DNA of 53,093 nucleotides from Chitinophagaceae bacterium (GTDB lineage Bacteria > Bacteroidota > Bacteroidia > Chitinophagales > Chitinophagaceae), in the NCBI GenBank assembly GCA_025934485.1, contig JAICXX010000025.1, positions 1 to 53,093 of the forward strand. The letters run 5' to 3'. Below, one piece after another: positions 21,804 through 53,093 of this stretch. The number at the start of each line of letters is the position of its first letter. Position 1 is the first letter of the stretch. The translations under genes and the position numbers were made by a program. The notes under the pieces are model-generated. The model had not been told where the DNA came from and made no database searches. It saw nothing but the letters and a program-made list of their open reading frames with translations.

Positions 21804-23462
21804 TTACAAAGACACCCCGCGTTTCCAGGGGATGAAGTCGTCCTGCACGTGGCGGACGGCTGCTACCTGGGTCTCGCCGCTGGCGACGCCGATCACATAG
21901 TCGAGGATGCGCGCGCCGGCCTGCTGGATGGTTTCTTTGCCTTCGATGATGGTCCCGGTGTTGATGTCGATGATATCGCGCATGCGTTCGAAGAGGGCGG
22001 TGTTACTCGCGATCTTGACCACGGGTGTAACGGGGTTGCCGGTGGGCGTCCCGAGGCCGGTGGTGAACAGCACGATATTCGCGCCGGAGGCTACTTCGGC
22101 GGTCGTCGATTCGACGTCGTTACCCGGGGTACACAGCAGGTTGAGACCGGGTTTGGAGACTTTTTCCGGATAGTCTAACACATCCGTCACGGGTGAGGTG
22201 CCGCCTTTTTTCGCAGCGCCGGCAGATTTGATGGCGTCAGTGATGAGACCGTCGCGGATATTGCCGGGGGAGGGATTCATGTCGAAACCCGAGCCTACGG
22301 CTTTGGCGCGGTCGTTATAGGTACGCATAAGATGCGAGAAACGTTCGGCTGTTTCTTTGGTCATGCACCGGTCGCTTAAATTTTGCTCTACGCCGCAGAG
22401 TTCGGGGAATTCGCTGAGGATAACAGAACCGCCCATGGCGATGAGGAGATCGGAGCTATAGCCGATCGCAGGGTTGGCCGAGATGCCGGAGAATCCATCC
22501 GACCCCCCACATTCCAGCCCGATACAGAGTTTGCTCAGCGGCGCCGGCTGGCGCGTTTGCTGGTTGGCGAGGATCAGACCGGTAAAAGTTTGTTTTATGG
22601 CTTCGGAAAGGAAAGCGGATTCGGTACCGATCTTTTGCTGTTCAAGGATGTATAGCGGCTTTGAAAATTGCGGGCTGCGTTTTTTGATCTCTTCTTCCAG
22701 CATCGACACCTGCGCATTCTGACAGCCGAGGCTGAGGACGGTAGCGCCCGCGACGTTGGGGTGAGTGATATATCCTGCGAGCAGACCACAGAGCGCCTGA
22801 GCGTCCTGCCGGGTGCCACCACAACCGCCATCGTGATTGAGGAATTTGATGCCGTCGACATTCGGGAACAGGCGGGTATTTGCGTTATTCGCGTAATCGG
22901 TTTGCAGATCGGTGTTTAAGATCTCTTCGACGGTCTTGCCGCTTTTATACAATTCTACCAGCTGGTGCGATTGTTTTTGATAGCTGCGGTTGCGGCCGTA
23001 GCCAAGATCCGTGACGAGTGCCTGCTGGAGGACGTCGAGGTTGCGATTTTCACAAAATACCATCGGAATGACGACCCAGTAGTTGGCGGTGCCTACGCTG
23101 CCGTCGGCACGGTGATAGCCGTTGAAGGTTCGGTTTTTGAAGGCGGAGGTATCGGGTTTGACCCATTCTGTCTTTCTTTCGCCTACGGTGAAGTCGCCTG
23201 CGGCATGTTTGACGTTGCCGGTGCTGATGAGTCCGCCTTTTTTGATGGGTTGCTGGGCTTTGCCGACCAGTACCCCATACATGTAGATGGAGTCGCCGGG
23301 GTTGAGGTCCTGGGTGGCGAATTTATGTTTTGCTTTTACGATCTCCTGGATCGTGTAGTCTTGTCCTTCGTAGGAGACTTTGGCACCCTGCTCGAGGGGA
23401 GTGAGGGCTACCAGTACGTTGTCGGCGGGATGAACCTTTAATATTTTATGTTCGGTGCTCAT
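21804..23462 (-). CDS. uxaA: Altronate dehydratase (UxaA family)
   Basis: The 552-residue protein has an N-terminal SAF domain (about residues 1-95, LNPGDSIYMYGVLVGKA) and the large dehydratase domain (HDGGCGGTRQDAQALCGLLA, LGCQNAQ, IGLECGGSDGFSGISANPA, PGNIRDGLITDAIKSAGAAK). UxaA dehydrates D-altronate to 2-keto-3-deoxy-D-gluconate using a metal ion. Start and stop overlap by 4 nt (ATGA) with uxaB. It is the last gene of the operon. Because an L-fuconate dehydratase is missing from the cluster, a broadened substrate range is worth testing; UxaA relatives act on several sugar acids. Confidence 0.93.
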   Translation of the reverse strand: MSTEHKILKVHPADNVLVALTPLEQGAKVSYEGQDYTIQEIVKAKHKFATQDLNPGDSIYMYGVLVGKAQQPIKKGGLISTGNVKHAAGDFTVGERKTEWVKPDTSAFKNRTFNGYHRADGSVGTANYWVVIPMVFCENRNLDVLQQALVTDLGYGRNRSYQKQSHQLVELYKSGKTVEEILNTDLQTDYANNANTRLFPNVDGIKFLNHDGGCGGTRQDAQALCGLLAGYITHPNVAGATVLSLGCQNAQVSMLEEEIKKRSPQFSKPLYILEQQKIGTESAFLSEAIKQTFTGLILANQQTRQPAPLSKLCIGLECGGSDGFSGISANPAIGYSSDLLIAMGGSVILSEFPELCGVEQNLSDRCMTKETAERFSHLMRTYNDRAKAVGSGFDMNPSPGNIRDGLITDAIKSAGAAKKGGTSPVTDVLDYPEKVSKPGLNLLCTPGNDVESTTAEVASGANIVLFTTGLGTPTGNPVTPVVKIASNTALFERMRDIIDINTGTIIEGKETIQQAGARILDYVIGVASGETQVAAVRHVQDDFIPWKRGVSL

Positions 23463-24931
23463 AACACTGGTTTTTGAACGGCCTGCGCTAACGTAGCGGT
23501 GACGCCGTTGTTGATCAAAGAATCGAGATTACGTTGAACCGCGGCTTCGAAGCCGGGGAGTTTGGTCAGATCGACGCCCCAGAGCGTCCGGTCTTTGAGG
23601 GCGGCATTTACCACCGTGTCGGGGCTTTTCCAGAGTTCCGCGAAATGCGCCGCCTTGTCATCGTTGATGGTATAAGCACCACCCTTCATGAACAGCAGAT
23701 AGGCGGCGAAGCCCAGGGCGATGTGTGACGGCGGCGTGCTATATTTTTCATAGTGCCGGAGCAACACGGGGATAACGCGGCTTTTCAATTTGGAGGAATA
23801 CTGCAGGGTGATGCTCAGCCATTGATGCTGTAGATGCGGGTTGCGGAAACGGTCGAGGACCTGGAGACCAAAATCTCGCGCCTTGCTCAGTTGTACTTCA
23901 TAAGGGATTGCAGGCGCGATCTCTTTGAGCATCAGGTCCGAGATGAAGGAGCTGAAGGCGGCGTCATCCATGGCTTTCTTGACCGTAGAGAAGCCCGCGA
24001 GATAGGCAAGTCCGCAACTTAAGGTATGGGTGCCATTAAGAAGACGTAGTTTCAGCTCGCGGTAGATCTCGATGTCAGGGGCGATAATCACGCCATCATC
24101 GGCGGCGGCAAAAGAAAGAACTTTTTTGACCTTTTCGTCGCCTTCGATGGCCCAAAGGCGGTAGACCTCGGAGATGGCGAGCAGGTCATCTGTGTAACAA
24201 AGATCTTCAGTTAATTGTTGCAAAGTGGCCGCATCCGGTTTACCGGGAACGATGCGATCCACCAGCGAGGAGCAAAAGTGGCAATGTTTTTCAACCCAGA
24301 TAAGGAAATCGGCTTCGAGGCCATTCATTTTTATGAGCTCTCCCACGATGCCGGCGAGTTTCTTGCCGTTGTCTACGATCAATTCGGTAGGTACGATGAC
24401 CATACCTGAATCCGCGCTGCCGTTGAAGGCTTTAAAGCGCTCGTAGAGGAAGGCCAGCAATTTGCCCGGGAAGGACGCGGGCGGCACGCGACGGATATCG
24501 TCGTCGACGAGCTGAATGCCCACTTCGGTGGTATTGGAGATGACGATCTGCATCTCGGGTTTGTGGGCCAGGGCGAGAATGTCCTGCCATTGGTCGCGGG
24601 CCGACAGTACCCGGCTGATGGCCGAGCAGATGATATTCTCTTCTACTTTATGGCCGTTTTCGATACCCCGGACGCATAGTGTATAGAGGCCATCCTGTCG
24701 GTCGAAGGCTCCCGCGTCGCCGGAGTCGGTGGATTTGACGACGACAACACGCCCGTTAAAGAGCCCCTGGCGGTTAGCTTTATCGATGAAATAGTCGGGC
24801 AGGCCGCGTAGCAGGACGCCGGTGCCGAATTGCAATACTTTCTCCGGAAGGGAGAAGATGGGATCGGCGGGTTTGATGACGCCATGTGTATGGATGGCGG
24901 AGAGATTCGTTTTGGAGAGTTGCATGGTCAT
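23459..24931 (-). CDS. uxaB: Tagaturonate reductase
   Basis: The 490-residue protein is of the mannitol dehydrogenase/UxaB type: N-terminal NAD-binding region (VLQFGTGVLLRGLPDYFIDK), middle region with DDLLAISEVYRLWAIEG, and the C-terminal domain with KLRLLNGTHTLSCGLAYLAG. It reduces D-tagaturonate to D-altronate with NADH. The ATG at 24931 overlaps the TGA of the aldolase gene; the longer frame up to 25243 is only the shadow of that gene. Its substrate would normally come from UxaC, which is absent here, but could come from the Zn-ADH of the same operon acting on L-galactonate. Confidence 0.93.
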   Translation of the reverse strand: MTMQLSKTNLSAIHTHGVIKPADPIFSLPEKVLQFGTGVLLRGLPDYFIDKANRQGLFNGRVVVVKSTDSGDAGAFDRQDGLYTLCVRGIENGHKVEENIICSAISRVLSARDQWQDILALAHKPEMQIVISNTTEVGIQLVDDDIRRVPPASFPGKLLAFLYERFKAFNGSADSGMVIVPTELIVDNGKKLAGIVGELIKMNGLEADFLIWVEKHCHFCSSLVDRIVPGKPDAATLQQLTEDLCYTDDLLAISEVYRLWAIEGDEKVKKVLSFAAADDGVIIAPDIEIYRELKLRLLNGTHTLSCGLAYLAGFSTVKKAMDDAAFSSFISDLMLKEIAPAIPYEVQLSKARDFGLQVLDRFRNPHLQHQWLSITLQYSSKLKSRVIPVLLRHYEKYSTPPSHIALGFAAYLLFMKGGAYTINDDKAAHFAELWKSPDTVVNAALKDRTLWGVDLTKLPGFEAAVQRNLDSLINNGVTATLAQAVQKPVL

Positions 24932-25605
24932 TGTTTTTGGGCGAGCCGGGCAAGCCTGAGGGCTTCCAGCGTATTCTCGTATAAAAGATCGTAGTTCTCG
25001 GTTTTCAGGATGTCTTTGCTGATCAATCGGCTGCCGAAGCCAACGGCTTTGACGCCGGCTTTGAACCAGGCCCGGACATTGTCTTCGTCGATCTCGACAC
25101 CGCCGGTAGGGATGAAGACCTGGTCCTGGAAAAGCTCGCGGATCGAGCTGATGAATTCGGGGCCGACGATATTCGCGGGGAAGATCTTGATAGCCGCGGC
25201 TTTGAGTTGCTGGGCGGTATAGATCTCGGTAGGTGTCATGCAACCCGGTATCCAGAGCATGTCGCTTTCGGCTGCTACGGCCGCCACCTCGGGATTGACA
25301 ATGGGTGCAATGATGAAGTCTGCGCCCGCTTTGATGAAGGCTTTTGCCTCCGCGGCGGATTTGATGGTGCCGATGCCGAGATAGAGATCGGGCGCTTCAA
25401 CCGCTAGCGTTTTCTTGAGCATGGTGAAATTATCGAGCGCAGCGGTTCCGCGGTTAGTGTATTCTATCGCCCGGACGCCGGCGCGGTAGAGGGTTCGCAT
25501 CACCTCGAGACATACGGAAGGACTCTCCCAATAGAATAAGGGAAGGATGCCCTGGCCGATGATCGTTTGTAAGATTACTTTTTTATCGGTTTTTTTATCG
25601 TTCAT
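24928..25605 (-). CDS. KDPG aldolase (KDPG/KHG aldolase family)
   Basis: The 225-residue TIM-barrel aldolase has VRAIEYTNRG, YLGIGTIKSAAEA, the Schiff-base lysine region (AAIKIFPANIVGPEF) and FIPTGGVEIDEDNVRAWFKA. It cleaves 2-keto-3-deoxy-6-phosphogluconate to pyruvate and glyceraldehyde 3-phosphate. The start at 25605 overlaps the kdgK end by 11 nt. The longer frame to 25737 is rejected because it lies inside kdgK and has no family-like sequence. Confidence 0.92.
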   Translation of the reverse strand: MNDKKTDKKVILQTIIGQGILPLFYWESPSVCLEVMRTLYRAGVRAIEYTNRGTAALDNFTMLKKTLAVEAPDLYLGIGTIKSAAEAKAFIKAGADFIIAPIVNPEVAAVAAESDMLWIPGCMTPTEIYTAQQLKAAAIKIFPANIVGPEFISSIRELFQDQVFIPTGGVEIDEDNVRAWFKAGVKAVGFGSRLISKDILKTENYDLLYENTLEALRLARLAQKQ

Positions 25606-26620
25606 ACGCGTGCATAAATTTGAGGATGTCCGCAGCGCGCTGGTCGGTGGCATCGCTGGGGATGAATAGTTTTTGATAGGCGGCGGCGGTGGCGAACTCC
25701 AGGGTATCCTGGGGACTGTCGCCTTTGCGGAAGCCATGGATGAGGCCGGCCATGAAGCAGTCGCCGCTACCGACCTTGTCGAGGATCTGGTCGCTGGTGT
25801 ACTCGACGGAATGGTAGAGGGTCTTGTTCGTGTAAAGTGAGGTGTAGTATTTTATGCCTTTTTCGCCATGATCGAAACGGAAGGTCTTGGCGACATGTTT
25901 CACCTTGGGAAAGGTCTTGATAATTTGCTCGCTGGTTATTCGCGAATGCTCCAGATAGTCTGCCTTATTGCCGGCGGTGAGTCTTGTATCTACCGGCATG
26001 CCCAACATTTTCTCCGCGGCCCAGAGATTGCCCATCACAAAGTCGCAATATTCAACCAGGCCGGGCATGATATCCGTGGGCGCGGCGCCGTATTGCCAGA
26101 GCTTTGCCCGATAGTTGAGATCGACGGAAATGGTGATGTTCTTTTTGCTTGCCGCTTCCAGCAGCTCTTTGCAGACGGTTGCCGCGTTGCGGTTGAGAGC
26201 CGGGGAGATGGCGCTGAAGTGGAGCCAGCCGATGTCTTGCAGCGCTTTGTCCCAATCGATGCTCCCGGGCTGAAGAGCGGCAAAGGAAGAGTAGGCGCGG
26301 TCGTAGATGACGCCGGCATTTTTGAGGTCTTTGCCTTTAGGGAGATAGTACACGCCGAGACGTTCGCCTTCGTAACGGACGCGGGTGGTATCGACGCCGA
26401 GATCGTTTAGATACGAAGCTAATTGTCTCGTCATCAGGTTATCGGGCATCGCGGTGCAATAGGCGGATGGGGTGCCCCAGATGGCGAGGGCCGTGGCGAC
26501 ATTGCATTCGGCGCCGCCGACATAAAAAGGCAGGACGTTGTCTTTCAGCCAGCCGCCATCCGCGTCCGGGCAGATGCGCAGCAGGATCTCACCATATGAT
26601 AATACTTTGTTGTTGCTCAT
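25595..26620 (-). CDS. kdgK: 2-keto-3-deoxygluconate kinase (PfkB family)
   Basis: The 341-residue PfkB-type sugar kinase has N-terminal substrate-site elements (YVGGAECNVATALAIWG) and the C-terminal catalytic signature KVGSGDCFMAGLIHGF with the general-base Asp. It phosphorylates KDG to KDPG. It follows a 88-nt gap that holds paired inverted repeats in pseudoknot order and one copy of an intercistronic repeat, unlike the tight spacing elsewhere in the operon. That gap could give this segment (kdgK-aldolase-uxaB-uxaA) separate control. Confidence 0.92.
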   Translation of the reverse strand: MSNNKVLSYGEILLRICPDADGGWLKDNVLPFYVGGAECNVATALAIWGTPSAYCTAMPDNLMTRQLASYLNDLGVDTTRVRYEGERLGVYYLPKGKDLKNAGVIYDRAYSSFAALQPGSIDWDKALQDIGWLHFSAISPALNRNAATVCKELLEAASKKNITISVDLNYRAKLWQYGAAPTDIMPGLVEYCDFVMGNLWAAEKMLGMPVDTRLTAGNKADYLEHSRITSEQIIKTFPKVKHVAKTFRFDHGEKGIKYYTSLYTNKTLYHSVEYTSDQILDKVGSGDCFMAGLIHGFRKGDSPQDTLEFATAAAYQKLFIPSDATDQRAADILKFMHAYER

Positions 26621-26627
26621 AATATGT

Positions 26628-26676
26628 GCCGAAGATTCGTTTGGTGAAAATTAACGCATCTTCGGCAAAGCGTTAA
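26628..26676 (-). promoter_or_regulatory. Interleaved inverted repeats before kdgK (pseudoknot or switch)
   Basis: Two perfect inverted repeats interlock: GCCGAAGAT (26628-26636) with ATCTTCGGC (26658-26666), and TTAACGC (26651-26657) with GCGTTAA (26670-26676). In RNA they would form a pseudoknot or two mutually exclusive hairpins, just upstream of the kdgK start at 26620. No known riboswitch family is recognised. Confidence 0.5.
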
Positions 26677-26710
26677 TGATTGTCCTTCGGACGAGCCGCC
26701 TTTGGCGGCT
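26676..26710 (-). repeat. Intercistronic repeat with hairpin, copy 1
   Basis: Bases 26676-26694 are identical to 31043-31061 (19 nt, containing the small stem GTCC-TTC-GGAC). Both copies are followed by a GC-rich hairpin of different sequence; here it is 26694-26710, with 7-bp arms GCCGCC/GGCGGC plus an A-T pair. The hairpin overlaps the stop codon of the Zn-ADH gene (TAG, 26709-26711). Confidence 0.75.
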
Positions 26711-27719
26711 AAAAGTCTACCATTGCTTTAATGACGCCGTTGGCCGGGTCGAGCCAGGAGGCGAATTGATCTTTTACCTGATCGAAACGAACCCTATGCG
26801 TGATATAGGTCGTAGGATCGATGAGGCCTTTTTCCATGGCGCGGATGACGTTGTCGAAGTCTTCGCGGGTCGCATTGCGGCTGCTCATCAGCGTGCCTTC
26901 GCGTTTGTGGAACTCGGGGTGGCTGAAGCAAATTTCGCCTTTTTGCAGACCCACCAGCACATAACGGGCGCCATGTGCCATATATTGAAAGGCGTCGGTG
27001 ATGGCCTTGCGGCTGCCGGTAGCGTCGATCACCACGGTGGGCATGTCGCCGCGGGTGATGTGCCTTAGCTGCTCCATGGGGTTGTCGGCGGCGTTCACAG
27101 TGTGTAATATCCGGAGACGCTCGCGGCAGAAACTGAGCCTTGCTTCGTTAATATCCATGGCTATGACTTCGGCTCCTGCGATACGCGCCGACTCCATCGT
27201 ACCCAGGCCTATGGGACCTGCGCCTACCACCAGCACGAATTCTCCGGGCTGGATACCTGCACGACGCACGGCGTGCGCGCCGATTGCCAGGGGTTCGATG
27301 AGGGCGAGCTGATCGTGAGTAAGGCCCCGGCCATGGACGAGGGACGTGCTGGGTACCGATAGGTATTCGACCATGCCGCCATCGATGTGTACGCCGCAGA
27401 CTTTGATACTGGTACAGCAGTTGGGTTTTCCGTTGCGGCAGGCGATACAATGTCCGCAGTTGAAGTAAGGGATGATGGTAACGGCCTCGCCCGGCTGGAA
27501 GCCCGGGGCCTGATCGAGGTCTACAAGATCGCCCGCCAGCTCGTGACCGAGGATACGGGGATATTCAAAATAAGGTTGTGTGCCTTCGAAGGCATGCAGA
27601 TCGGTGCCGCAGATGCCGATGCGGCGGATCTTGATGATGCTTTCGCCGGGTGTCGCGAGCGGCGCGTCGGCTTCTTTGTATTCGAATTCGCCGGGTTTTA
27701 TGCAAACTAATGTCTTCAT
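26709..27719 (-). CDS. Zn-dependent alcohol dehydrogenase, probable L-galactonate 5-dehydrogenase
   Basis: The 336-residue MDR-type dehydrogenase has the catalytic zinc site (GICGTDLHAFEG, GHELAGDL), a structural zinc lobe (CGHCIACRNGKPNCC) and the NAD-binding GAGPIGLGTMESARIAG. E. coli LgoD, of the same broad family, oxidises L-galactonate to D-tagaturonate. That role fits the place of the gene between the fucose/galactose dehydrogenase and lactonase on one side and the tagaturonate reductase branch on the other. It is separated from the SDR gene by 3 nt. A role in lactaldehyde or another polyol oxidation cannot be excluded. Confidence 0.85.
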   Translation of the reverse strand: MKTLVCIKPGEFEYKEADAPLATPGESIIKIRRIGICGTDLHAFEGTQPYFEYPRILGHELAGDLVDLDQAPGFQPGEAVTIIPYFNCGHCIACRNGKPNCCTSIKVCGVHIDGGMVEYLSVPSTSLVHGRGLTHDQLALIEPLAIGAHAVRRAGIQPGEFVLVVGAGPIGLGTMESARIAGAEVIAMDINEARLSFCRERLRILHTVNAADNPMEQLRHITRGDMPTVVIDATGSRKAITDAFQYMAHGARYVLVGLQKGEICFSHPEFHKREGTLMSSRNATREDFDNVIRAMEKGLIDPTTYITHRVRFDQVKDQFASWLDPANGVIKAMVDF

Positions 27720-27722
27720 GGC

Positions 27723-28511
27723 TTAGGCATTTGCCAGCGCCCGGTCGAGATGGACATAGCCACCGTCGACGTGGATGAGCTGACCTGTGGTGTGACTGGA
27801 TCTTTCGGACAGCAGGAAGGCGGTCGTGTTGGCGATCTCTTCCGAGGTAGTCATGCGATTTTCCAGAGGAATATTTTTTGTGATGGTTTCGAGCTTGGCT
27901 TGCGGATCCGGGAGGGTGTTGACCCATTTCTCATAGAGCGGTGTCCAGCATTCGGCCACGACGATGGCATTGACGCGGATACCGTATTTCAGCAGCTCCA
28001 CGGCCCATTCGCGGGTAAGGGCGTTGCGGCCGCCGTTGGAAGCGGCATAGGCGGAAGTATTACCCTGACCGGTTTCTGCAGTCTTGGAGCTGATATTGAC
28101 GATCGCGCCTTTGGATTTGATAAGAGCCGGGAGGGCATAGTGCGCCAGGAGATAATAATGGATGAGGTTTTTATGAAGGGAGGCGAGGAAGGCCTGGTAG
28201 CTACCGGACTCCAACCCTACCCCATCATTAACGCCGGCGTTGTTGACGAGACCGTCGATGCGACCGCAGCGTTGCAGTACGATCTTGATGGCCTGCTCAC
28301 AGGCGTCGGGTTGGGTGAGCTCGGCTACGGTTTGGAAGGCTTTGCCGCCGGCGGCTTTCACGGCCTCGAGGGTGATGAGGTTATCCTGCTCGTTCCGGCC
28401 GATGATAAAAGGGATGGCGCCTTCGGCGGCTAGGACTTTTACGATGCCTTCGCCGATACCTTTGGCTCCGCCGGAGACGATGATGACTTTGTCTTGTAAT
28501 TCGAGGTTCAT
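27723..28511 (-). CDS. SDR L-fucose dehydrogenase, probably also L-galactose
   Basis: The 262-residue short-chain dehydrogenase has TGxxxGIG-type nucleotide binding (VSGGAKGIGEGI), NNAG, the catalytic Ser in NISSKTAETGQGNTSAY and the Tyr in the same segment; the usual YxxxK reads YAASNGGR, so the Lys position is changed to Asn. The sequence follows bacterial L-fucose dehydrogenases closely (NNAGVNDGVGLESG, LHKNLIHYYLLAHYALP, ASHTTGQ-like end, DGGYVHLDRAL). Such enzymes usually also oxidise L-galactose. The product is the 1,5-lactone, the substrate of the upstream lactonase gene. The missing Lys should be confirmed by alignment. Confidence 0.88.
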   Translation of the reverse strand: MNLELQDKVIIVSGGAKGIGEGIVKVLAAEGAIPFIIGRNEQDNLITLEAVKAAGGKAFQTVAELTQPDACEQAIKIVLQRCGRIDGLVNNAGVNDGVGLESGSYQAFLASLHKNLIHYYLLAHYALPALIKSKGAIVNISSKTAETGQGNTSAYAASNGGRNALTREWAVELLKYGIRVNAIVVAECWTPLYEKWVNTLPDPQAKLETITKNIPLENRMTTSEEIANTTAFLLSERSSHTTGQLIHVDGGYVHLDRALANA

Positions 28512-28538
28512 AACGAGTTTATTATTTTCAGCGGTGTT

Positions 28539-28564
28539 ATGCAGTCGGCTTCGCCTCGTGTCAT
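28539..28564 (-). repeat. 26-nt intercistronic repeat, copy B, includes the upstream stop codon
   Basis: Identical over 26 nt to the element at 17246-17271 but on the other strand. Read in the direction of transcription it contains the TGA stop of the lactonase gene at the same position (bases 2-4) and is followed by 27 nt before the SDR start. Confidence 0.85.
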
Positions 28565-29394
28565 AACTTATAAAAATTTATGGCATTGCCGCCGAAGAAG
28601 GCGGCCTTTTCGGTTTCACTGAAAGGTGCGAAATAGTCCTCTACGATCTGTAATACCTGCCGGTAGCTTGCGGCGACCAGGCACACGGGCCAATCCGAAC
28701 CGTATAAAATTCGATTGACACCGAAGGCTTCCACGATGGTATCGAGATATACCCGAAAGTGTTCAGGCTTCCAATGATACCAGTCGGCTTCCGTGACCAT
28801 ACCGGAAATCTTGCAATACAGGTTAGGGTATGCCGCGACGGCACGGATGGCCGCTTTCCACTCGTCTGTAATATATCTGTCCTTGATATGCGGTTTGGCG
28901 ATATGATCCAGTACGAATGGCTGGTTGGGAAAGGCCGCTACGAATTCGCGGGTGTATCCCAACTGATCGGGATAGATCAGGATATCGTAGGTATAGCCTT
29001 GGGGTTCCAGCAGCGCGATGCCGCGTTTGAAGCTCGGCCTGAGCATCAGTGCGCGGTCATGTTCTCCCTGCAGCACGTGACGGAAGCCTTTGAGCTTGGG
29101 ATGACGCTTGTAGTAAACGAGCCGTTGTTCGACCTCAGGGTTCATCAGATCGACCCAGCCGACGACGCCTTTGATGAAGTCGTTCTCTGCAGCATGTTTT
29201 AAGAGATACTCGTTCTCCTCTTCCGACTGATCCGCCTGGACGGCGACGCAGCCATCGATGCCTGCCGCTTGTAACTCCGTTAGGAGGTCGGCGGGCAGGA
29301 AGTCTTTTTGGATGACATGCATTTCAGGGGTGATCCATGCATCGCGAACGGGGTCGTATTTCCAGAAATGCTGATGAGAATCAATTCTGGCCAT
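28561..29394 (-). CDS. Amidohydrolase-family L-fuconolactonase
   Basis: The 277-residue TIM-barrel hydrolase of the amidohydrolase_2 type begins MARIDSHQHFWKYDPVRDAW, with the HxH metal ligands, and continues with KGVVGWVDL, FVLDHIAKP and LYGSDWPVC (last metal-binding Asp). Enzymes with these features in fucose and L-galactose clusters open the L-fucono- or L-galactono-1,5-lactone to the acid. The start at 29394 is chosen because homology begins there; it overlaps the FAH gene by 14 nt. The longer frame to 29472 has no family support. Confidence 0.9.
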   Translation of the reverse strand: MARIDSHQHFWKYDPVRDAWITPEMHVIQKDFLPADLLTELQAAGIDGCVAVQADQSEEENEYLLKHAAENDFIKGVVGWVDLMNPEVEQRLVYYKRHPKLKGFRHVLQGEHDRALMLRPSFKRGIALLEPQGYTYDILIYPDQLGYTREFVAAFPNQPFVLDHIAKPHIKDRYITDEWKAAIRAVAAYPNLYCKISGMVTEADWYHWKPEHFRVYLDTIVEAFGVNRILYGSDWPVCLVAASYRQVLQIVEDYFAPFSETEKAAFFGGNAINFYKL

Positions 29395-30244
29395 AGGCTT
29401 TAACGTTTTGCCGGGCCTGGCCCAGGTTGTCGATGCCGAGCTCCACCAAATCGCCGGGCTGGAGATAGACATTGGGTTTCATGCCCAGGCCTACCCCTGC
29501 GGGGGTTCCGGTGGAGATCACGTCACCAGGCAGCAAGGTCATGAACCGGCTGGTATAGGCGATCAAAAAAGGTATGTTGAAGATCAGGTTGGAAGTAGTA
29601 CCATCTTGCATTTTTTTACCATTCACCGTAAGCCAAAGCCGCAGGTTGTGGACGTCCTTTATTTCATCCGGTGTAGCCAGCCAGGGCCCCATTGGGGCGA
29701 AGGTGTCGCAGCCTTTTCCCTTGTCCCAGGTTCCGCTGCGTTCGATTTGAAATTCGCGTTCGGAGACGTCGTTGTGCAGGCAATAGCCGGCGACGTGGTT
29801 CAGGGCATCCTTTTCGTCCACGTAGCTCGCCTTTTTGCCGATGACGAGGGCGAGTTCCACTTCCCAATCAGTCTTTTTACTATCCTTTGGAATGACGATG
29901 TTATCGTTGGGGCCTACGAGGGCGGTGGTGGATTTCATGAAGATCACGGGTTCGGGTGGCGGGGTGGCATTGGTCTCTTTTGCATGATCGACGTAGTTGA
30001 GGCCAATGCAGACGATCTTCGAGGGCCGGGCGATGGGCGAGCCCAGGCGGGTGCCTTTTGGCAGTTCTTTGAGCTGGGCCTTGTTTTTTGCCACGTACGC
30101 CTTTAGGCGGTCCAGGCCGCCTGTGGCGAAGAACTGCTCGTTGTAGTCTTCCCCGTCGCTAAAGTCTTTTGTGTCATAATATTTGCCGTCGAGTACGATT
30201 CCTGTAGTTTCTTTTTCGGGTGCGCCGTGTCTGATGAGTAACAT
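29381..30244 (-). CDS. FAH-family hydrolase, probable 2,4-diketo-3-deoxy-L-fuconate hydrolase
   Basis: The 287-residue protein is of the fumarylacetoacetate hydrolase fold: PSKIVCIGLNYVDHAKETNA, VIFMKSTTALVGPNDNIVIP, DWEVELALVIGKKA (metal-binding acids), LLPGDVISTGTPAGVGLG. In the non-phosphorylating fucose route it splits 2,4-diketo-3-deoxy-L-fuconate into pyruvate and L-lactate. The SDR that makes its substrate is the next gene upstream (4 nt gap), which supports the assignment. Related FAH enzymes act on rhamnonate-derived diketo acids, so rhamnose is an alternative. Confidence 0.88.
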   Translation of the reverse strand: MLLIRHGAPEKETTGIVLDGKYYDTKDFSDGEDYNEQFFATGGLDRLKAYVAKNKAQLKELPKGTRLGSPIARPSKIVCIGLNYVDHAKETNATPPPEPVIFMKSTTALVGPNDNIVIPKDSKKTDWEVELALVIGKKASYVDEKDALNHVAGYCLHNDVSEREFQIERSGTWDKGKGCDTFAPMGPWLATPDEIKDVHNLRLWLTVNGKKMQDGTTSNLIFNIPFLIAYTSRFMTLLPGDVISTGTPAGVGLGMKPNVYLQPGDLVELGIDNLGQARQNVKAYGQN

Positions 30245-30248
30245 ACGA

Positions 30249-31001
30249 TCAATTGTTTAATTTAATGAAACCGCCGTCGATGGGATAGTCGCAGCCGGTG
30301 ATGAAAGAAGCTTCGTCGCTGCAAAGATACAGGATGAGACCGGCAATCTCTTCCGGCTTGGCCATTCTGCCGATGGGTTGGGTCTTCGATAATTTATCGA
30401 ACATCTCCTCCTCTTTACCCGGGTAATTCTTTTTCAGGAATCCATCCACAAAGGGGGTATGGACACGGGCGGGAGAGACACAGTTACAGCGGATCTTATC
30501 TTTGAGATAATCTTTGGCTACGGAAAGGGTCATGGAATAGACGGCCCCTTTGGTCATCGAATAGGCAAACCGGTCAGGGATGCCCACGGTGGCGGCGATC
30601 GAACACATGTTGACGATCACACCGCCCTTTTCTTTGAGCCTCGGGATGGCTGCATTTAAGCAGTTGTAAACGCCTTTCACATTGACGTTGTACAGCCGGT
30701 CGAAATCGGCTTCTGCAGTGGATTCGGCGGTACCGATGTGTGAAACGCCGGCGCTATTGACGAGAATGTCGAGTTGCGGGAGGCTGGCGAAGAGGTCTTT
30801 TGTCACCTTTTGGTTGCTGACGTCGGCGGCTTTCGCCACGGCGTTGCTGCCTATTTCTTTGGCCGTTTCTTCGGCCTGTTGTGCGTTGATGTCTGCTACA
30901 TATACGGTGGCGCCTTGTTCGGCGAGCAGAATGGCTACGGCTTTGCCGATGCCGCTGCCGGCGCCTGTGACTACTGCGTGTTTACCTAATAAACTAAACA
31001 T
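30249..31001 (-). CDS. SDR, probable 2-keto-3-deoxy-L-fuconate dehydrogenase
   Basis: The 250-residue short-chain dehydrogenase has TGAGSGIGKAVAILLAEQGA, NSAGVSHIGT, catalytic Ser in VNMCSIAATVGIPDR and YSMTK (Tyr and Lys), and the end SFITGCDYPIDGGF. It resembles the KDF dehydrogenases that oxidise C4 of 2-keto-3-deoxy-L-fuconate before the FAH hydrolase acts, and the two genes are adjacent. A relic of the same gene start lies 77 nt upstream of the true start codon, at the position expected for the next gene after the mutarotase. Confidence 0.87.
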   Translation of the reverse strand: MFSLLGKHAVVTGAGSGIGKAVAILLAEQGATVYVADINAQQAEETAKEIGSNAVAKAADVSNQKVTKDLFASLPQLDILVNSAGVSHIGTAESTAEADFDRLYNVNVKGVYNCLNAAIPRLKEKGGVIVNMCSIAATVGIPDRFAYSMTKGAVYSMTLSVAKDYLKDKIRCNCVSPARVHTPFVDGFLKKNYPGKEEEMFDKLSKTQPIGRMAKPEEIAGLILYLCSDEASFITGCDYPIDGGFIKLNN

Positions 31002-31042
31002 TGTTCAAAGTTTTTTCCGTGAGCAAATCCGCAATAGCGCTT

Positions 31043-31075
31043 ATGATTGTCCTTCGGACGATCCCCTTCCAGGGG
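31043..31075 (-). repeat. Intercistronic repeat with hairpin, copy 2
   Basis: Bases 31043-31061 are identical to 26676-26694. The following hairpin is CCCCT-TCC-AGGGG (31063-31075), a different sequence from the first copy but the same kind of structure. The flank AGCGCTT at 31036-31042 also resembles AGCGTTA in copy 1. Confidence 0.75.
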
Positions 31076-31077
31076 CT

Positions 31078-31107
31078 CAGTGCGTGTTTACCCTTGAGAC
31101 TGAACAT
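31078..31107 (-). pseudogene. Relic of an SDR gene start (10 codons)
   Basis: From an ATG at 31107 this encodes MFSLKGKHAL, against MFSLLGKHAV at the true SDR start (31001); several codons are identical at DNA level (GGT AAA CAC GCA). After that the frame runs into the repeat element and stops at 30994 after 37 residues. The relic begins 8 nt after the mutarotase stop, the normal place for an operon gene to start. Confidence 0.6.
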
Positions 31108-31115
31108 TTCTTATT

Positions 31116-31469
31116 CTATTGTTCTGTGAGTTTAAAAATCTTATTCATCAGCCGCCATTTTTCGCCTTCGCGTCCGCCCGGTATCGCTTTTTGGTATTTC
31201 CACATCAGCTCTTCCCAGCGTTGGACGGCGGGGTTGGCGCTGTCCATGGCTGCTTTTTTTTCGAAGTCGAAGGAGTCATCTGTCTCCATGATCATGAACA
31301 GACGGTCTTCGAGCCGGTAGATCTCCATTTCGGTTATGCCGCTTTCGAGGATACTTTGTTTGATCTCGGGCCAGATGGCTTTGTGCCAGTGTTCGTATTC
31401 GGCGATGAGCTTTTCGTCATTGTTCAGGTCGAGGGCCAGACAGTATCGTGTTCTATTCATTCGGCTCAT
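31116..31469 (-). CDS. L-rhamnose mutarotase family protein (probable L-fucose mutarotase)
   Basis: The 117-residue protein belongs to the DUF718/RhaM family: YCLALDLNNDEKLIAEYEHW with HKAIWPEI, then GITEMEIYRLEDRLFMIMET and NPAVQRWEELMWKYQ. These dimeric enzymes interconvert the anomers of L-rhamnose or L-fucose. Because it sits with the fucose permease and L-fucose dehydrogenase, L-fucose is the more likely substrate; rhamnose cannot be excluded since the window is rich in rhamnosidases. The start at 31469 overlaps the permease stop (ATGA); a second in-frame ATG is at 31460. Confidence 0.9.
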   Translation of the reverse strand: MSRMNRTRYCLALDLNNDEKLIAEYEHWHKAIWPEIKQSILESGITEMEIYRLEDRLFMIMETDDSFDFEKKAAMDSANPAVQRWEELMWKYQKAIPGGREGEKWRLMNKIFKLTEQ

Positions 31470-32740
31470 GCGATTGCAGCTTGGGTTTTATTTATCGGTT
31501 TGATCTTGTATCCTTTGATCCCAAAGTAAACGATGAAGAGAAAGCCGATGAGAGGCATTATATAAGCATTTTGCATATTGCCGGTCTTGTCGGAGATGAT
31601 GCCCATGAGCACCGGTGTAAAGGCGCCGCCAATGATCGCCATGACGAGAAAGGAAGCCGCCAGCTTAGTCTCTTCGCCGAGGTCTTTGACGCCGAGTGCA
31701 AAGATCGTCGGGAACATGATGGACATGAAGAAGGGGGTCAGCATCAGCGTGTATACGGCAATCCGGCCGTGTGTCAGCAGCGCGACAGTGACCAGGCCGA
31801 CATTGATTACCGCATATATTGTCAGGAGGCGGGCAGGTTTTATGAAGCGCATCAGATAGGTGCCGAGAAAACGGCCGGCCATAAAGCCGATCATCGCGTA
31901 AGTCTGCAATAAACCGGCCTCTTTTTCGGGAATGGCGGCTGCCTGCTTCGCAAACCGGATGAAGAAGCCGAGGATGCCTGCCTGTGCGCCAACATAGAAG
32001 AATTCGCCGATGGCCGCCCAGCGGACATGCGAAAAACGCAAGATGCTGAGGGAGAACTTTGTCGTGCTGTGCGCACCTTCCGTAGTTTCCGTAACCTCGG
32101 GAAGCTTTATCCGCATGAACAAGATCGCGAGCAGCACGAGGACAATGGCGATCACGAGATAGGGAGGCTTGAGCGAACTGGCTTCGTGGGCAAGATAGGC
32201 ATTAAGCTGGCCGTTAGCTTTCATCGTATTCAGCTCTGCCTGGGTATGTTCTACACCCGACAATATGAAATTCGTACCAACTAACGGCGCGACGACGGCG
32301 CCGAGACCATTAAAAGATTGCGCCAGGTTCAACCGCTGTTCGGATGTTTCGGGTTTCCCGAGGATCGTTGCATATGGATTGGCCATGGTCTCGAGAAAAG
32401 CTGCGCCGCTGGCAGCGATGAAGATGGCCAGCAGGAAGAGGGGGAAAGTGCGGCTATCGGCCGCCGGCAAAAAGAGCAGCGCTCCAACGGCGAAGAGGAA
32501 GAGGCCGAAAATGATGCCTTTTTTATAGCCGAACTTATGGCTGAACAGACCGGCTGGGATGGCGGCGACGAAATAGGCCAGATAAAGGGCCAGGTCGGTA
32601 AGTGAGGATTGGGTGTCGGACAGGTGGCATACCTTCTTCAATTGGGGTATCAGAATACCATTGATATTATGCAGGAAAGCCCACATAAAGAAGAGTGTGC
32701 AGATCAGAGCGAATGGGAGTAAATACTTATTTTTTGACAT
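31466..32740 (-). CDS. fucP: L-fucose:H+ symporter (MFS, FucP family)
   Basis: The 424-residue inner-membrane transporter has about 12 predicted helices and FucP family features: FALICTLFFMWAFLHNINGI at the N-terminus, AGLFSHKFGYKKGIIFGLFL, ASGAAFLETMANPYATILG and LAQSFNGLGAVVAPLVG. Relatives import L-fucose and sometimes L-galactose, D-arabinose or glucose/galactose. It is the first gene of the 11-gene operon and has a promoter-like element 43 nt in front of its start, shared with the TraB-like gene. Confidence 0.92.
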   Translation of the reverse strand: MSKNKYLLPFALICTLFFMWAFLHNINGILIPQLKKVCHLSDTQSSLTDLALYLAYFVAAIPAGLFSHKFGYKKGIIFGLFLFAVGALLFLPAADSRTFPLFLLAIFIAASGAAFLETMANPYATILGKPETSEQRLNLAQSFNGLGAVVAPLVGTNFILSGVEHTQAELNTMKANGQLNAYLAHEASSLKPPYLVIAIVLVLLAILFMRIKLPEVTETTEGAHSTTKFSLSILRFSHVRWAAIGEFFYVGAQAGILGFFIRFAKQAAAIPEKEAGLLQTYAMIGFMAGRFLGTYLMRFIKPARLLTIYAVINVGLVTVALLTHGRIAVYTLMLTPFFMSIMFPTIFALGVKDLGEETKLAASFLVMAIIGGAFTPVLMGIISDKTGNMQNAYIMPLIGFLFIVYFGIKGYKIKPINKTQAAIA

Positions 32741-32852: not shown

Positions 32853-33218
32853 TTATACGCAAATATGGGGAATGTGAGGAATATCTTTTAAAGTTAAAAG
32901 TAAACTCCGCCGACCTTGGTTACCAATAAATATTCTTGAAGGGAGGAATTCGCAGATGATCAACTCATCATCTGATTCCAAAAAAACGACAGTGTATTTT
33001 CTTTTGTAGGGGATGCATTTGTATCCTATGATGGCGCGTTCCGTATCCCTGCAGGGTGCGTACTGTTTTCGTGAATCGGATAGCTTTAAAAAGAAATCAT
33101 ATACGTTGTCAGCGAATTTTTCGGCGGTAGCTACCATGCCTTTCGATTCGATAAACCAAGCTATTTCGGCGATACTATCGGCAACAGACTGCTTGACGAT
33201 TACTTCTCGCTGGCCCAC
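32853..33218 (-). CDS. RelE/ParE-type toxin
   Basis: The 121-residue protein has the RelE/ParE pattern: N-terminal helix hairpin (SVADSIAEIAWFIESKGMVA, TAEKFADNVYDFFLKLSD) and C-terminal beta strands (RAIIGYKCIPYKRKYTVVFL, ELIICEFLPSRIF). Such toxins inhibit gyrase or cleave mRNA at ribosomes, and which applies is not visible. The start codon is GTG at 33218; no ATG is available upstream in frame, and the gene overlaps the antitoxin by 19 nt. The last 20 residues go beyond the usual family end and look untidy, perhaps after a frame change. Confidence 0.8.
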   Translation of the reverse strand: MGQREVIVKQSVADSIAEIAWFIESKGMVATAEKFADNVYDFFLKLSDSRKQYAPCRDTERAIIGYKCIPYKRKYTVVFLESDDELIICEFLPSRIFIGNQGRRSLLLTLKDIPHIPHICV

Positions 33219-34486: not shown

Positions 34487-37453
34487 CTATCGGCTTGAGC
34501 CGCAGATCTCGGTTTCGATGATACTCAGGCGAGCCGGGACCTTGCTTGCTTTTGAGCCGGATGGAGGGGCAGGGTCGCCGGGGCCGTCATCGAGCTTTTT
34601 GCCGTTGACCTCTTCGCCGGCGACGGCTTGCTGGTTCGGGGGCGCGGTGAGCTGGATACGCACGGTTTGACCTGTAACCGGCTTGAATTTTAAATGGACA
34701 TAGCCGAGGCTTTTCTCCGTTGTACCTCTCCAGGCTTCCCTGCCGTCAACCAATATCCGCAAGGGGTATGACCTGGTACGGAAGTTATTGAGCTTTAGAA
34801 CGACTTCGTCGATACTGGAGGAATATTGGAGCTTGTATTCGATCCAGGCAGTCGCGAGGTCATCTTCGCTATACCAGCTCGTTGTCTCATTGTCATCGAC
34901 CGTATTGAGGGTGAGGCCGGCGTTGATACCGGCGTTGATGGAAGCCCAGGGCAACATGGTGCGGGAGATGTGATAGGATGGGCCCGGCGGAGTGGGTCCG
35001 CGGTCGAGCGGGGCGGTGAGGCCATTGTCCGGCATCTGCAGGGCGAGACCGTTATCGACGTTGAACCGTTTCGCCTTGAAGGTAAGGGTGGCGGCGGAGA
35101 GCCCTTTGGCGGAAGCCCTGAGCACGATGGTGCCGGCCTTTGTCGTGCTGCGAATAAGCACGCGGTTCACGCCGCATTCCAACGGCAGGTCTTTCGACAG
35201 GATATAGTTATCGGGGCCCTGGGCCATGCCGCCGCGCCATTCTGCGGGACCTTCGAGCTGGAAATGGATCAGCGAGAGATCGGTGGGGCACCGTTCGCCT
35301 TTGGCATCGACGGCTTCGACCGTTACCATCGCAAGGTCCGCACCATCCGCACGGAAGCCATGCGGGGCGTTTTGCAGGGAAAGCCTGATGGCGACGGAGC
35401 GGCCGGCAGTCTTGTGGCTGTCTGAACAGCGTTCGTGACCGGCGCTGTCGTACCCGATGGCGGTGATGGTACCGGGTTGCCAGCTGACGTTCTTAAACGT
35501 ATAGAGGAAGCGGTATTGTTGCTGGCCCCAACCTATCGCGTGACCGTTGACGAAGAGTCGGACCTTTTTTGCGCTGGAGACGACATAGATGTCTTTTGTG
35601 ACGCCGCGTTTGTAGTTCCAGTGACCCAGGATATGGATACGCGGCTTTTCTACATCGACCCAACCATCCCACATGACCTGGTGGGCATAGAACCCGTCTT
35701 TGGGAATGCGGAGGGCGTCGACCTCGCCGCTGCGCCGGTAATTCTCGGCTCCGCGGTAATGGGTATTCGATTCCGAGAAGATGATGTTGACGCCGCCGGC
35801 ACTGACGCGGAGGCCGGTCCCCGGTCGTTCCCGCCAATAGTCATACCACCGGGCCACGTCTTCGATGGCATAGGAATCCTGGTTGTGGTTGTACATGGAA
35901 GCGTCTTCGCCTTTATAGGCAGGGCCATCACCGTCCTTGTGATAGGGCGGAGAGTAGTTGTCCCAATATTTCCGGAGCCCTTCGTCGCGGTTGTACTCCA
36001 TAGCCCACAGCGGTCTGCGTTCGCTTTTGTCGATGTATAACATCTCGCCGCCATATTCCGCGGTGTTGGATGCCAGCATCTCGCGGGCGCCGATGGCACG
36101 GCCGCCATAGGGATCGAACTGGTCGCGGACCCGTTTCATCTCCTTCATATGGTCTTCGCTGATGCCTTTGTTGCCGCATTCGTAGAAGATGATGCTGGGG
36201 CTATTGCGATTGTAGATAATGGCATCGCGCATGAGCTCGACGCGCTGTTGCCAGCGACGGCCTTCCACATCTTTCTCCGCATCACCCGCGGGCATGGCCT
36301 CCATGAGTCCCACGCGGTCGCAGGAAAGGACATCCTGATGCCAGGGGGTGACATGCATCCAGCGGATGAGATTGCCGTTGCTTTCTATAATGAGATGATT
36401 GCTATAATCACTCATCCACGGTGGTACGCTCTGGCCGATGGCGGGCCATTCGTTGGTGGTACGTTGTCCATAGCCATGGATCTGGATGGGGCGATCGTCG
36501 AGCGTAAGCATCCCGTCCGTGAAGGCCGTCTTGCGAAAACCGGTGGTGGTGGTCACCGAGTCGATGATCCTGCCATCCTCTTCCAGCATGGTGGCGACCT
36601 TATAGAGATAACCATAGCCCCAGCTCCAGAAACAAACTCCGGAGAGCTTTGTGCTATCTTTAACCGTGATGGTGTCGCCGGGACCCAGGGTCTGGGGTGG
36701 CGTTTGTATGCGCTTTAGTTCGCGGCCATCGCGGTCGCGGATGCTGACGATATAGCGGAATGTGCGCGCCTGGTCGCTTTCGTTCTCTATCTGCGCTTCG
36801 GCGGTGATAGTGGCTGTTTTTTTCGGGATGTCGATCTCGCGGGCGTAGATATAAATGCCTGTAGTACCAAGCGTGGAGTAAAGTGGCAGGGTTTGATGTA
36901 ACGGGTCCATCACATGGAGCCAGACATTCTTGTTGATGCCGCCGTAGTTGGCGTAGAAATTTTTATCGTTCCATTCGAAGGTGCTCCCCGTGGATTTCTC
37001 GTGATAGTCCCAATGGTTATCGATGCGGGCGGCGAGGACATTGTCGGAGTCGGGTTTCAACCAGGGCGTGATGTCGAAGCCAAAGGCCATGACGCCGTTC
37101 TCGTGGAGACCGAGGTGGTGACCGTTGAGCCAGAAATCGCCGGCCTGGCGGATGCCTTCGAATTCGAGGTAAATCTTTTTGTTGCGGTCGCCGGCAGGGA
37201 GCCTAAAATGTTTGCGGTACCAGGCGATGCCCGTAGTAAGATCCTGGATGGCTTTTTTAAAGGCATCGTCTTCGTTGAAGGCATGTGGCAGCGTGATTGC
37301 CCGCCAGGAGGCGTCGTCGAACGCCGGTGACTCTGCGCCGGTAGTGTCGCCGGTGTACAGCAGCCAGCCGGGATTGAAGTTGTAGGTAATCCTTACGGGT
37401 TGGGCTGTTGCTTTTAGGCTGATGGCGAGGATAAGGACTAAGATCGTTCTCAT
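34487..37453 (-). CDS. GH2 family glycoside hydrolase with DUF4982-type modules
   Basis: The 988-residue exported enzyme (signal peptide RTILVLILAISLKATAQ) has the GH2 order: sugar-binding jelly roll (YLEFEGIRQAGDFWLNGHHL), Ig-like domain, TIM barrel and C-terminal modules (DUF4982-like, then a discoidin-like end with DNETTSWYSEDDLATAWIEY). The barrel has NSPSIIFYECGNKGISEDH where active GH2 enzymes usually read GNE, so the usual acid/base Glu is a Lys. The nucleophile region PLWAMEYNRDEG keeps a Glu. It is probably a beta-galactosidase-like member of the pectin operon, and is its last gene, coupled by ATGA to the preceding gene. Confidence 0.87.
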   Translation of the reverse strand: MRTILVLILAISLKATAQPVRITYNFNPGWLLYTGDTTGAESPAFDDASWRAITLPHAFNEDDAFKKAIQDLTTGIAWYRKHFRLPAGDRNKKIYLEFEGIRQAGDFWLNGHHLGLHENGVMAFGFDITPWLKPDSDNVLAARIDNHWDYHEKSTGSTFEWNDKNFYANYGGINKNVWLHVMDPLHQTLPLYSTLGTTGIYIYAREIDIPKKTATITAEAQIENESDQARTFRYIVSIRDRDGRELKRIQTPPQTLGPGDTITVKDSTKLSGVCFWSWGYGYLYKVATMLEEDGRIIDSVTTTTGFRKTAFTDGMLTLDDRPIQIHGYGQRTTNEWPAIGQSVPPWMSDYSNHLIIESNGNLIRWMHVTPWHQDVLSCDRVGLMEAMPAGDAEKDVEGRRWQQRVELMRDAIIYNRNSPSIIFYECGNKGISEDHMKEMKRVRDQFDPYGGRAIGAREMLASNTAEYGGEMLYIDKSERRPLWAMEYNRDEGLRKYWDNYSPPYHKDGDGPAYKGEDASMYNHNQDSYAIEDVARWYDYWRERPGTGLRVSAGGVNIIFSESNTHYRGAENYRRSGEVDALRIPKDGFYAHQVMWDGWVDVEKPRIHILGHWNYKRGVTKDIYVVSSAKKVRLFVNGHAIGWGQQQYRFLYTFKNVSWQPGTITAIGYDSAGHERCSDSHKTAGRSVAIRLSLQNAPHGFRADGADLAMVTVEAVDAKGERCPTDLSLIHFQLEGPAEWRGGMAQGPDNYILSKDLPLECGVNRVLIRSTTKAGTIVLRASAKGLSAATLTFKAKRFNVDNGLALQMPDNGLTAPLDRGPTPPGPSYHISRTMLPWASINAGINAGLTLNTVDDNETTSWYSEDDLATAWIEYKLQYSSSIDEVVLKLNNFRTRSYPLRILVDGREAWRGTTEKSLGYVHLKFKPVTGQTVRIQLTAPPNQQAVAGEEVNGKKLDDGPGDPAPPSGSKASKVPARLSIIETEICGSSR

Positions 37454-39672: not shown

Positions 39673-39674
39673 GG

Positions 39675-45487: not shown

Positions 45488-45489
45488 GA

Positions 45490-52813: not shown

Positions 52814-52817
52814 CAGC

Positions 52818-53093
52818 TTACGATTTTTTGCATTCGACGGCATAAACTTCTTCCTTTCCTTCAAAGTTAGCGCGGAAGATGACCCATTTTCCATCCGGTG
52901 AAAAATGGACGTTGGGTTCGAGCTTATACTGTTGGTCCTTCATATTGACCAGTCTTTCCGAAACAAAATGATCTCCTTCCGGCCGGAAGAGATAGATCCA
53001 GCGGCCGTTTTTGGCGTGGGCCACCTGGGTGTCGTTGCCGCCGTCGCCGCAGAACAGCTTTTCGTCCGGGGATACGTTGAAGTGGATAGACCA
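52818..53093 (-). CDS. PL22 oligogalacturonate lyase-like protein, 5' part outside the window
   Basis: Only the last 91 residues are present, open to the right edge. They end a seven-bladed propeller: WSIHFNVSPDEKLFCGDGGN, then HAKNGRWIYLFRPEGDHFVS, ERLVNMKDQQYKLEPNVHFS and DGKWVIFRANFEGKEEVYAV. This is the C-terminal pattern of bacterial oligogalacturonate lyases and relatives (His of the HFN motif is a metal ligand in the family). PL22 breaks unsaturated or saturated oligogalacturonides. It is upstream of, and probably cotranscribed with, GH106 (4 nt apart). The first gene of this operon must lie outside the window. Confidence 0.85.
   Translation of the reverse strand, partial: WSIHFNVSPDEKLFCGDGGNDTQVAHAKNGRWIYLFRPEGDHFVSERLVNMKDQQYKLEPNVHFSPDGKWVIFRANFEGKEEVYAVECKKS

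Follow-up and report, generated by a model that had tools for sequence, protein, structure and literature searches.

Introduction

Bacterial breakdown of L-fucose and L-galactose has been described in several forms. In the non-phosphorylating route 3 pathway of X. campestris and H. huttiense, L-fucose is processed by a mutarotase, an L-fucose 1-dehydrogenase (FucDH), a lactonase, a 2-keto-3-deoxyfuconate (KDF) dehydrogenase and a FAH hydrolase (PMC11199699), while in Phocaeicola vulgatus (BVU_0219, BVU_0222) L-galactose is reported to be converted into L-galactonate and then into D-tagaturonate (PMC12632266). The lguABCDEF set of Luteolibacter handles two sugars with one galactonate dehydrogenase, tagaturonate reductase, altronate dehydratase and KDPG (2-keto-3-deoxy-6-phosphogluconate) aldolase (PMC12632266), and loci of Halomonas HL-48/HL-93 and Chromohalobacter, described in 2017, join fuconate genes with lgoD, uxaA and uxaB (or uxaF) (PMC5507952). 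In addition, proteins of the UxaA/GarD superfamily (C785_RS13685, A19U_RS0100650/655, ACAV_RS08155) have been linked to L-fuconate, L-galactonate or D-arabinonate (PMC6336799). An operon with likenesses to all of these systems is analysed here. It occupies positions 21804-32740 of a 53,093-nucleotide stretch of DNA from a Chitinophagaceae bacterium, referred to below as the window, and its genes encode homologues of two sugar-breakdown routes. The operon probably degrades both L-fucose and L-galactose by means of a shared front end and two lower branches, with a single UxaA-family protein predicted to be the dehydratase of both.

Organization of the operon and proposed pathway

The operon is a compact block of eleven genes on the minus strand, and all eleven genes that a first-pass annotation had placed on one strand were confirmed there. 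From the upstream end they are:

31466..32740, minus strand: FucP-type MFS sugar permease; TIGR00885 (fucP), 370 bits, above the cut-off of 280
31116..31469, minus strand: RhaM-family mutarotase, likely an L-fucose mutarotase; PF05336, 112 bits
30249..31001, minus strand: short-chain dehydrogenase/reductase (SDR), likely L-2-keto-3-deoxyfuconate 4-dehydrogenase (KDFDH) of type 4; R144, R179, F188 and T207 at L-KDFDH ligand positions
29381..30244, minus strand: FAH-family hydrolase, likely 2,4-diketo-3-deoxyfuconate hydrolase; NF053535, 345 bits, below the cut-off of 500; 8gsr, 255 bits
28561..29394, minus strand: amidohydrolase, likely L-fucono/L-galactono-1,5-lactonase; NF052480, 294 bits, below the cut-off of 400; solved relative 4dlf, 209 bits
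27723..28511, minus strand: SDR, L-fucose-type 1-dehydrogenase (FucDH); NF052481, 412 bits, above the cut-off of 300; solved relatives 4gkb/4gvx and 6drr
26709..27719, minus strand: zinc-dependent alcohol dehydrogenase (Zn-ADH), likely L-galactonate 5-dehydrogenase of the LgoD type; 44.8% identity to E. coli LgoD
25595..26620, minus strand: PfkB-family kinase, likely 2-keto-3-deoxygluconate (KDG) kinase (KdgK); PF00294; the top NCBIfam models, below cut-off, are KDG/KDGal kinase or an aldolase-kinase fusion
24928..25605, minus strand: KDPG/KHG aldolase (Eda); PF01081; TIGR01182, 135 bits, below the cut-off of 156
23459..24931, minus strand: tagaturonate reductase UxaB, the only copy found in the assembly; NF002969, 569 bits, above the cut-off of 359; single Mannitol_dh_C match of the genome
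21804..23462, minus strand: UxaA-family dehydratase, the only copy found, predicted to act on D-altronate and L-fuconate; PF20629, 324 bits

With the start positions chosen here (UxaB about 24931, Eda 25605, lactonase 29394), intergenic distances range from -14 to +114 bp and five neighbouring pairs overlap; the eleven genes are presumably co-transcribed. Promoter- and terminator-like sites were not more numerous than in shuffled sequence, and the Bacteroidetes-type promoter pattern that was tried did not match the window's minus strand.

In the proposed pathway, whose enzymes all have substrates that are predicted, for this organism, from homology and context, FucP, the mutarotase, the L-fucose-type dehydrogenase and the lactonase would form the shared front end. 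L-fuconate would then be dehydrated by UxaA to L-2-keto-3-deoxyfuconate, which the SDR at 30249-31001 would oxidise to a product split by the FAH enzyme into pyruvate and L-lactate. L-galactonate, on the other branch, would be oxidised at C5 to D-tagaturonate by the Zn-ADH, reduced to D-altronate by UxaB and dehydrated to KDG by the same UxaA, with KdgK and Eda yielding pyruvate and glyceraldehyde 3-phosphate, and galacturonate from pectin could enter at tagaturonate through a UxaC encoded on another contig (C37). L-fuconate is 6-deoxy-L-galactonate, and a single UxaA might serve several acids because L-fuconate, L-galactonate and D-altronate have a common C2-C4 configuration.

Recurrence of the gene set

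The genomes (cited below by G numbers, with C for contigs and L for loci) show directly which genes are present, which of them are single copy in the assembly, how the set is conserved and which genes occur together. The same eleven genes occur in the same order in a genome of the same genus (G511, L152), in the metagenome-assembled genome SZAS-43 (L155) and in Flavitalea sp. BT771 (L156). Imperialibacter sp. EC-SDR9 (L231) carries the full set in another order, with kdgK and eda at the far end and low identities for KdgK (37%), Eda (48%) and the FucP-like protein (32%), which suggests that the set was possibly assembled more than once. In a further genome (G529, L154) one stretch contains nine of the genes, KdgK and Eda being the two missing there. 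Recurrence of the set in four other genomes, all of which retain the ADH, exceeds chance. The dual-sugar operon with shared dehydrogenase and lactonase and split lower branches, which the first-pass annotation had thought unusual, is supported by comparison but is not unique, since it recurs in Bacteroidota and similar loci exist in Halomonas.

The predicted L-fucose front end and lower branch

Compared with route 3, the operon has the first enzyme (FucDH, with NF052481 over its cut-off) and a lactonase of the expected family (NF052480, below its cut-off); the enolase-type L-fuconate dehydratase of that route has no match in the window's assembly (G000; 6.75 Mb, 381 contigs, 93.4% complete), and UxaA is proposed in its place. 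Of the phosphorylating FucI/FucK/FucA route, L-fucose isomerase (PF07881) had no match in G000. Aligned with solved L-KDFDH, the SDR at 30249-31001 shows R-R-F-T at the four ligand positions, which is the type 4 pattern, and judging from these residues it is likely an L-KDF 4-dehydrogenase; the type 4 enzyme of Sphingobacterium mizutaii is reported to have a kcat/Km of 2730 mM-1 min-1 on L-KDF (PMC11199699). The closest solved relative of the FAH protein is L-2,4-diketo-3-deoxyrhamnonate hydrolase (8gsr), and the 2,4-diketo-3-deoxy compounds derived from fucose and from rhamnonate are described as identical (PMC11199699). D-arabinose has the same configuration, and the fucose branch could act on it as well.

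Use of FucDH for both sugars has a precedent in the B. multivorans enzyme, which is reported to be active on L-galactose (PMC6946681). In the FucDH tree, from which L188 was left out as a likely copy of L065, context labels are mixed and the window lies in no starred group. Of its 72 loci, about 16 hold both lower branches, about 22 the ADH only, about 21 KDFDH-FAH only and 13 neither; L105, whose KDFDH lies at a stretch edge, was counted as ADH-only and shifts these figures by one.

The Zn-ADH and the proposed L-galactose branch

Over 337 aligned columns the Zn-ADH shares 44.8% identity with E. coli LgoD, and its identity to RspB is 32%; the residues to which we assign zinc-site roles are invariant among 13 aligned proteins, and its gene lies 3 bp from that of FucDH. 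Relatives were collected by the ADH itself, which biases the sample, and the best 80 of 591 confirmed loci were used, with genes beyond short contig ends scored as misses. Among these 80, FucDH occurs within 6 kb in 25 and an aldo/keto reductase nearby in 13, never both (p 0.007 by Fisher's test, without correction for relatedness). KDFDH and FAH accompany FucDH in 9 of the 25 and the reductase in none of the 13, a pattern that fits a FucDH serving both sugars. Relatives of the reductase are labelled D-threo-aldose 1-dehydrogenase by JGI (on some of 120 rows), and the name rests on these labels; the six of the 13 reductases that were scanned with NCBIfam gave no match at E 1e-10. We take this name to cover the oxidation of both L-fucose and L-galactose, so that the label alone is no proof of an L-galactose role.

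Of the P. vulgatus-type L-galactose route, tagaturonate reductase (UxaB, over cut-off) and altronate dehydratase (UxaA, by Pfam) are encoded in the operon. A dehydrogenase of the BVU_0219/GALDH group was not found there, where the SDR is the sole candidate for C1 oxidation; this result covers the operon alone and involved no direct comparison with BVU_0219. As a separate observation, FucDH-ADH pairs (separated in L228) also occur at L167, L188, L193-L195, L197, L198, L210 and L228 near a family whose L167 member is L-arabinose isomerase.

UxaA and Mannitol_dh_C have one match each across G000, both in this operon, and UxaC is encoded once, on another contig (C37:42476-43867), where GDSL, GH28 and GH88-like matches precede it as a pectin-type cluster. 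The window has no UxaC, so the hexuronate set UxaC-UxaB-UxaA is not complete in the operon. Of the two enzymes that the first-pass annotation had listed as absent, UxaC is therefore missing locally only, while the lack of a fuconate dehydratase stands within the limits of the assembly. The same annotation had suggested that the Zn-ADH, if it carries out the LgoD reaction, can account for the missing UxaC: its identity to LgoD supports the assignment, but with UxaC on C37 the ADH is not needed to explain that gap.

Because no second copy of UxaA or UxaB was found and UxaC lies on C37, galacturonate breakdown would have to run through the operon as well. The strongest competing explanation takes this further and holds that the operon degrades only L-fucose and galacturonate: UxaB, UxaA, KdgK and Eda would be the hexuronate block of the genome, joined to the fucose genes because UxaA is shared, L-galactose would be no real substrate and the ADH would have another role. 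Pectin-type glycosidases upstream in the window agree with it, as does G516 (L086), with one UxaA genome-wide, in which genes for mutarotase, KDFDH, FAH, lactonase and FucDH are followed by GH28, GH88-like, UxaB, UxaA and UxaC and no ADH match occurs. It is nevertheless considered unlikely in view of the LgoD identity of the ADH, its position 3 bp from FucDH and its retention in all four other full-set loci, and in view of two loci (L073, L122) that combine ADH, UxaA, UxaB and FucDH without KDFDH and FAH.

Alternatively, L-galactose (and D-arabinose) might pass through the fucose branch, with UxaA acting on L-galactonate directly, KDFDH and FAH finishing the route, and ADH and UxaB kept for other acids. 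The L-KDFDH of H. huttiense is reported to accept L-2-keto-3-deoxygalactonate (L-KDGal; kcat/Km 1480 against 7900 for L-KDF) (PMC11199699), X. campestris XCC4067 also accepts it, and a UxaA-family enzyme was weakly active on L-galactonate (PMC6336799). This explanation appears improbable, as it leaves unexplained the LgoD-type ADH that stands beside FucDH in five loci devoid of KDFDH and FAH (L060, L065, L073, L075, L122).

UxaA as the predicted L-fuconate dehydratase

A search of 395 genomes of the class with the NF052481 profile found FucDH over the cut-off in 37 genomes, at 38 places. For the 37 places besides the window, stretches no longer than 20 kb were retrieved, and the proteins of the window were used to annotate them under identity thresholds of our choice: UxaA is present in 15 of these stretches, KDFDH with FAH in 20, and all three in 12. 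At the level of whole genomes, UxaA occurs in 36 of the 37 with FucDH, the exception being G383, an assembly of about 840 contigs with 89% completeness. Across the order, by way of rough orientation, UxaA was seen in 46 of 198 genomes. Six genomes discussed in this article or used beside it (G511, G529, G558, G516, G561, G464) were picked from UxaA-bearing genomes and stand outside this count.

Tagaturonate reductase was unmatched in nine of the 37 genomes, a non-homologous type (e.g. UxaF of PMC5507952) not having been searched for, so UxaA is unlikely to act there on the known altronate route; in all nine it is located with KDFDH and FAH. In one of them (G363) UxaA is 71% identical to that of the window. 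Relatives of the fuconate dehydratase occur in two of the nine, at 43% identity in G302 and, interrupted by two stops, at 44% in G363. A near relative of the window's UxaA (L085, 73%) is located in the fucose operon of G561, whose second UxaA lies beside UxaB (L097). The place beside KDFDH that UxaA holds in other loci is taken at L066 by a fuconate-dehydratase-type enolase; this protein (L066:12991-14310) matches the solved structures 4ip4 (618 bits), human ENOSF1 4a35 (604) and L-fuconate dehydratase 1yey/2hne (585). As an observation apart, two loci (L049, L062) hold KDFDH-FAH with a GFO/IDH/MocA oxidoreductase and no UxaA in the stretch, and the only UxaA of each genome is elsewhere with UxaB.

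The search for an enolase- or IlvD-family fuconate dehydratase that the first-pass annotation had proposed was run. The L066 enolase as query retrieved nothing from G000 at E 1e-20, and from G511, which is 99% complete, no more than partial matches of 32% identity. G000 has five enolase-superfamily and two IlvD-family matches: all five enolases, scanned with NCBIfam, resemble mannonate, rhamnonate or talarate dehydratases, or epimerases/racemases, and for the two compared with solved structures fuconate dehydratase was not among the matches. One IlvD-family protein (G000:C348, L010:826-2544) is close to L-arabinonate dehydratase (850 bits to its model, cut-off 882) and hints at a non-phosphorylating pentose route. 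Discovery of both a dedicated dehydratase and uxaC elsewhere under common regulation had been named as grounds for abandoning the original proposal; uxaC is indeed elsewhere, and the dehydratase was not found. The proposal's option that UxaA itself covers fuconate dehydration gains from the comparison, through the 36 of 37 genomes and the nine UxaB-less contexts, and UxaA is likely the fuconate dehydratase here.

That L-fuconate is instead dehydrated by another enzyme (an unrecognised enolase or IlvD protein, or one encoded in the missing 7% of the assembly), with UxaA acting on D-altronate alone, is favoured by the incomplete assembly, the five enolase genes and the L-arabinonate-dehydratase-like IlvD gene, whose substrates are unproven, yet is very improbable given the failed queries in G000 and G511, the resemblance of the five enolases to other families and the nine UxaB-less relatives that retain UxaA with KDFDH and FAH.

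Biochemical work on a UxaA-family enzyme offers a precedent for broad specificity: relative activities of 100% on D-arabinonate, 12% on D-altronate, 5.6% on L-fuconate and 2.4% on L-galactonate are reported, D-altronate and L-galactonate having the C2-C4 configuration of D-arabinonate (PMC6336799). In the alignment, eight columns split the nine UxaA of UxaB-less genomes from six copies in hexuronate context, against a mean of 0.38 and a maximum of 7 such columns in 500 random splits. The most telling column, which holds Cys313 in the window's UxaA, was discarded as a specificity marker, since over all rows Cys occurs there in 15 of the 21 proteins with fucose context and in 13 of the 41 with hexuronate context.

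UxaA context shifts repeatedly in the phylogeny of 84 UxaA proteins, which speaks for the shared-UxaA reading: the label for fucose context has to change 10 times, and starred branches force 7 of these changes. L071 (the same gene as L150) and L130 (a split match) were left out, and L105 was set by hand to hybrid, its KDFDH being at the stretch edge with a piece visible in L153.

Several observations weigh against the two-sugar operon with a shared UxaA. The window's UxaA belongs to a lineage of mostly hexuronate context: of the 18 rows in the smallest starred set that contains it, 12 are hexuronate, 4 hybrid, and one each fucose and other; no residue cleanly parts fucose- from hexuronate-context UxaA over all rows; and 8 of the 20 surveyed KDFDH-FAH loci have no UxaA in the stretch. 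Among the best 80 of 591 ADH relatives, 42 are near neither FucDH nor the reductase, in five Chitinophaga-type loci (L160, L162-L164, L170) the ADH stands beside Mla transport genes, and ADH beside FucDH is no significant predictor of a genomic UxaB (10 of 10 against 18 of 27, p 0.08). C. jejuni FucX is reported to use L-galactose barely, and C. jejuni not to grow on it (PMC6946681). For the UxaA-family enzyme cited above, kcat/Km on D-altronate is given as about 6,700-fold below that on D-arabinonate, and product NMR for the poor substrates was partly unexpected (PMC6336799), so that use of two substrates by one UxaA is not automatic.

On balance, degradation of L-fucose and L-galactose through one UxaA remains the preferred reading. 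The chances are about even for a wider proposal, in which one UxaA would be the obligatory hub for three sugars (acting on L-fuconate, and on D-altronate from L-galactose and D-galacturonate) and fucose, galactose and hexuronate operons would have merged more than once in Bacteroidota around this iron-dependent dehydratase. For many FucDH-bearing Bacteroidota, dehydration of L-fuconate by UxaA rather than by an enolase-type enzyme is the likely answer, and a lone uxaA cannot be taken as a hexuronate gene. The operon also offers a proposed route for L-galactose use and a test case in which one promiscuous dehydratase would link two or three pathways.

Surroundings of the operon

Between the operon and the next gene lies an open reading frame of 121 amino acids (32853-33218, minus strand), and farther upstream a carbohydrate-active block on the minus strand (34487-52894) encodes a GH2 protein, GH88 plus glucuronyl-esterase-like domains in a single reading frame (37450-39771; the latter domain PF22244), a GH2-like protein of 1688 amino acids, a GDSL esterase, and GH28, DUF4450 and GH106 proteins. 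This pectin-type block might feed the operon. A rhamnogalacturonan II reading of its glycosidases was considered as an assumption of our own, and the literature examined leaves it undecided; L-galactose is described as a component of pectin rhamnogalacturonan II (PMC7939467).

Comparison with known systems

No description of this operon in Bacteroidota was found in the titles and abstract openings searched, subscription journals being mostly beyond reach. The Halomonas and Chromohalobacter loci belong to Gammaproteobacteria, have TRAP transporters and were interpreted as serving users of L-fuconate and L-galactonate (PMC5507952), whereas the present operon has a front end for the free sugars (FucP, FucDH, lactonase) and no fuconate dehydratase gene of its own. 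The L-galactose dehydrogenase of P. vulgatus groups with plant GALDH (PMC12632266), in contrast to the unrelated SDR-type FucDH and attached fucose branch found here. In Luteolibacter the partner of L-galactose is L-glucose, and the available account of lguABCDEF includes no KDF dehydrogenase or FAH branch (PMC12632266). Relative to route 3 (PMC11199699), the operon has a UxaA-family dehydratase in place of the enolase-type one and carries a second lower branch. The UxaA/GarD enzymes linked to L-fuconate, L-galactonate or D-arabinonate are each described for one pathway (PMC6336799), while the UxaA of the window is predicted to serve two or three. As comparable combinations of genes (in Halomonas) and promiscuity within the UxaA family have already been published, the operon is a new variant of known pathways.

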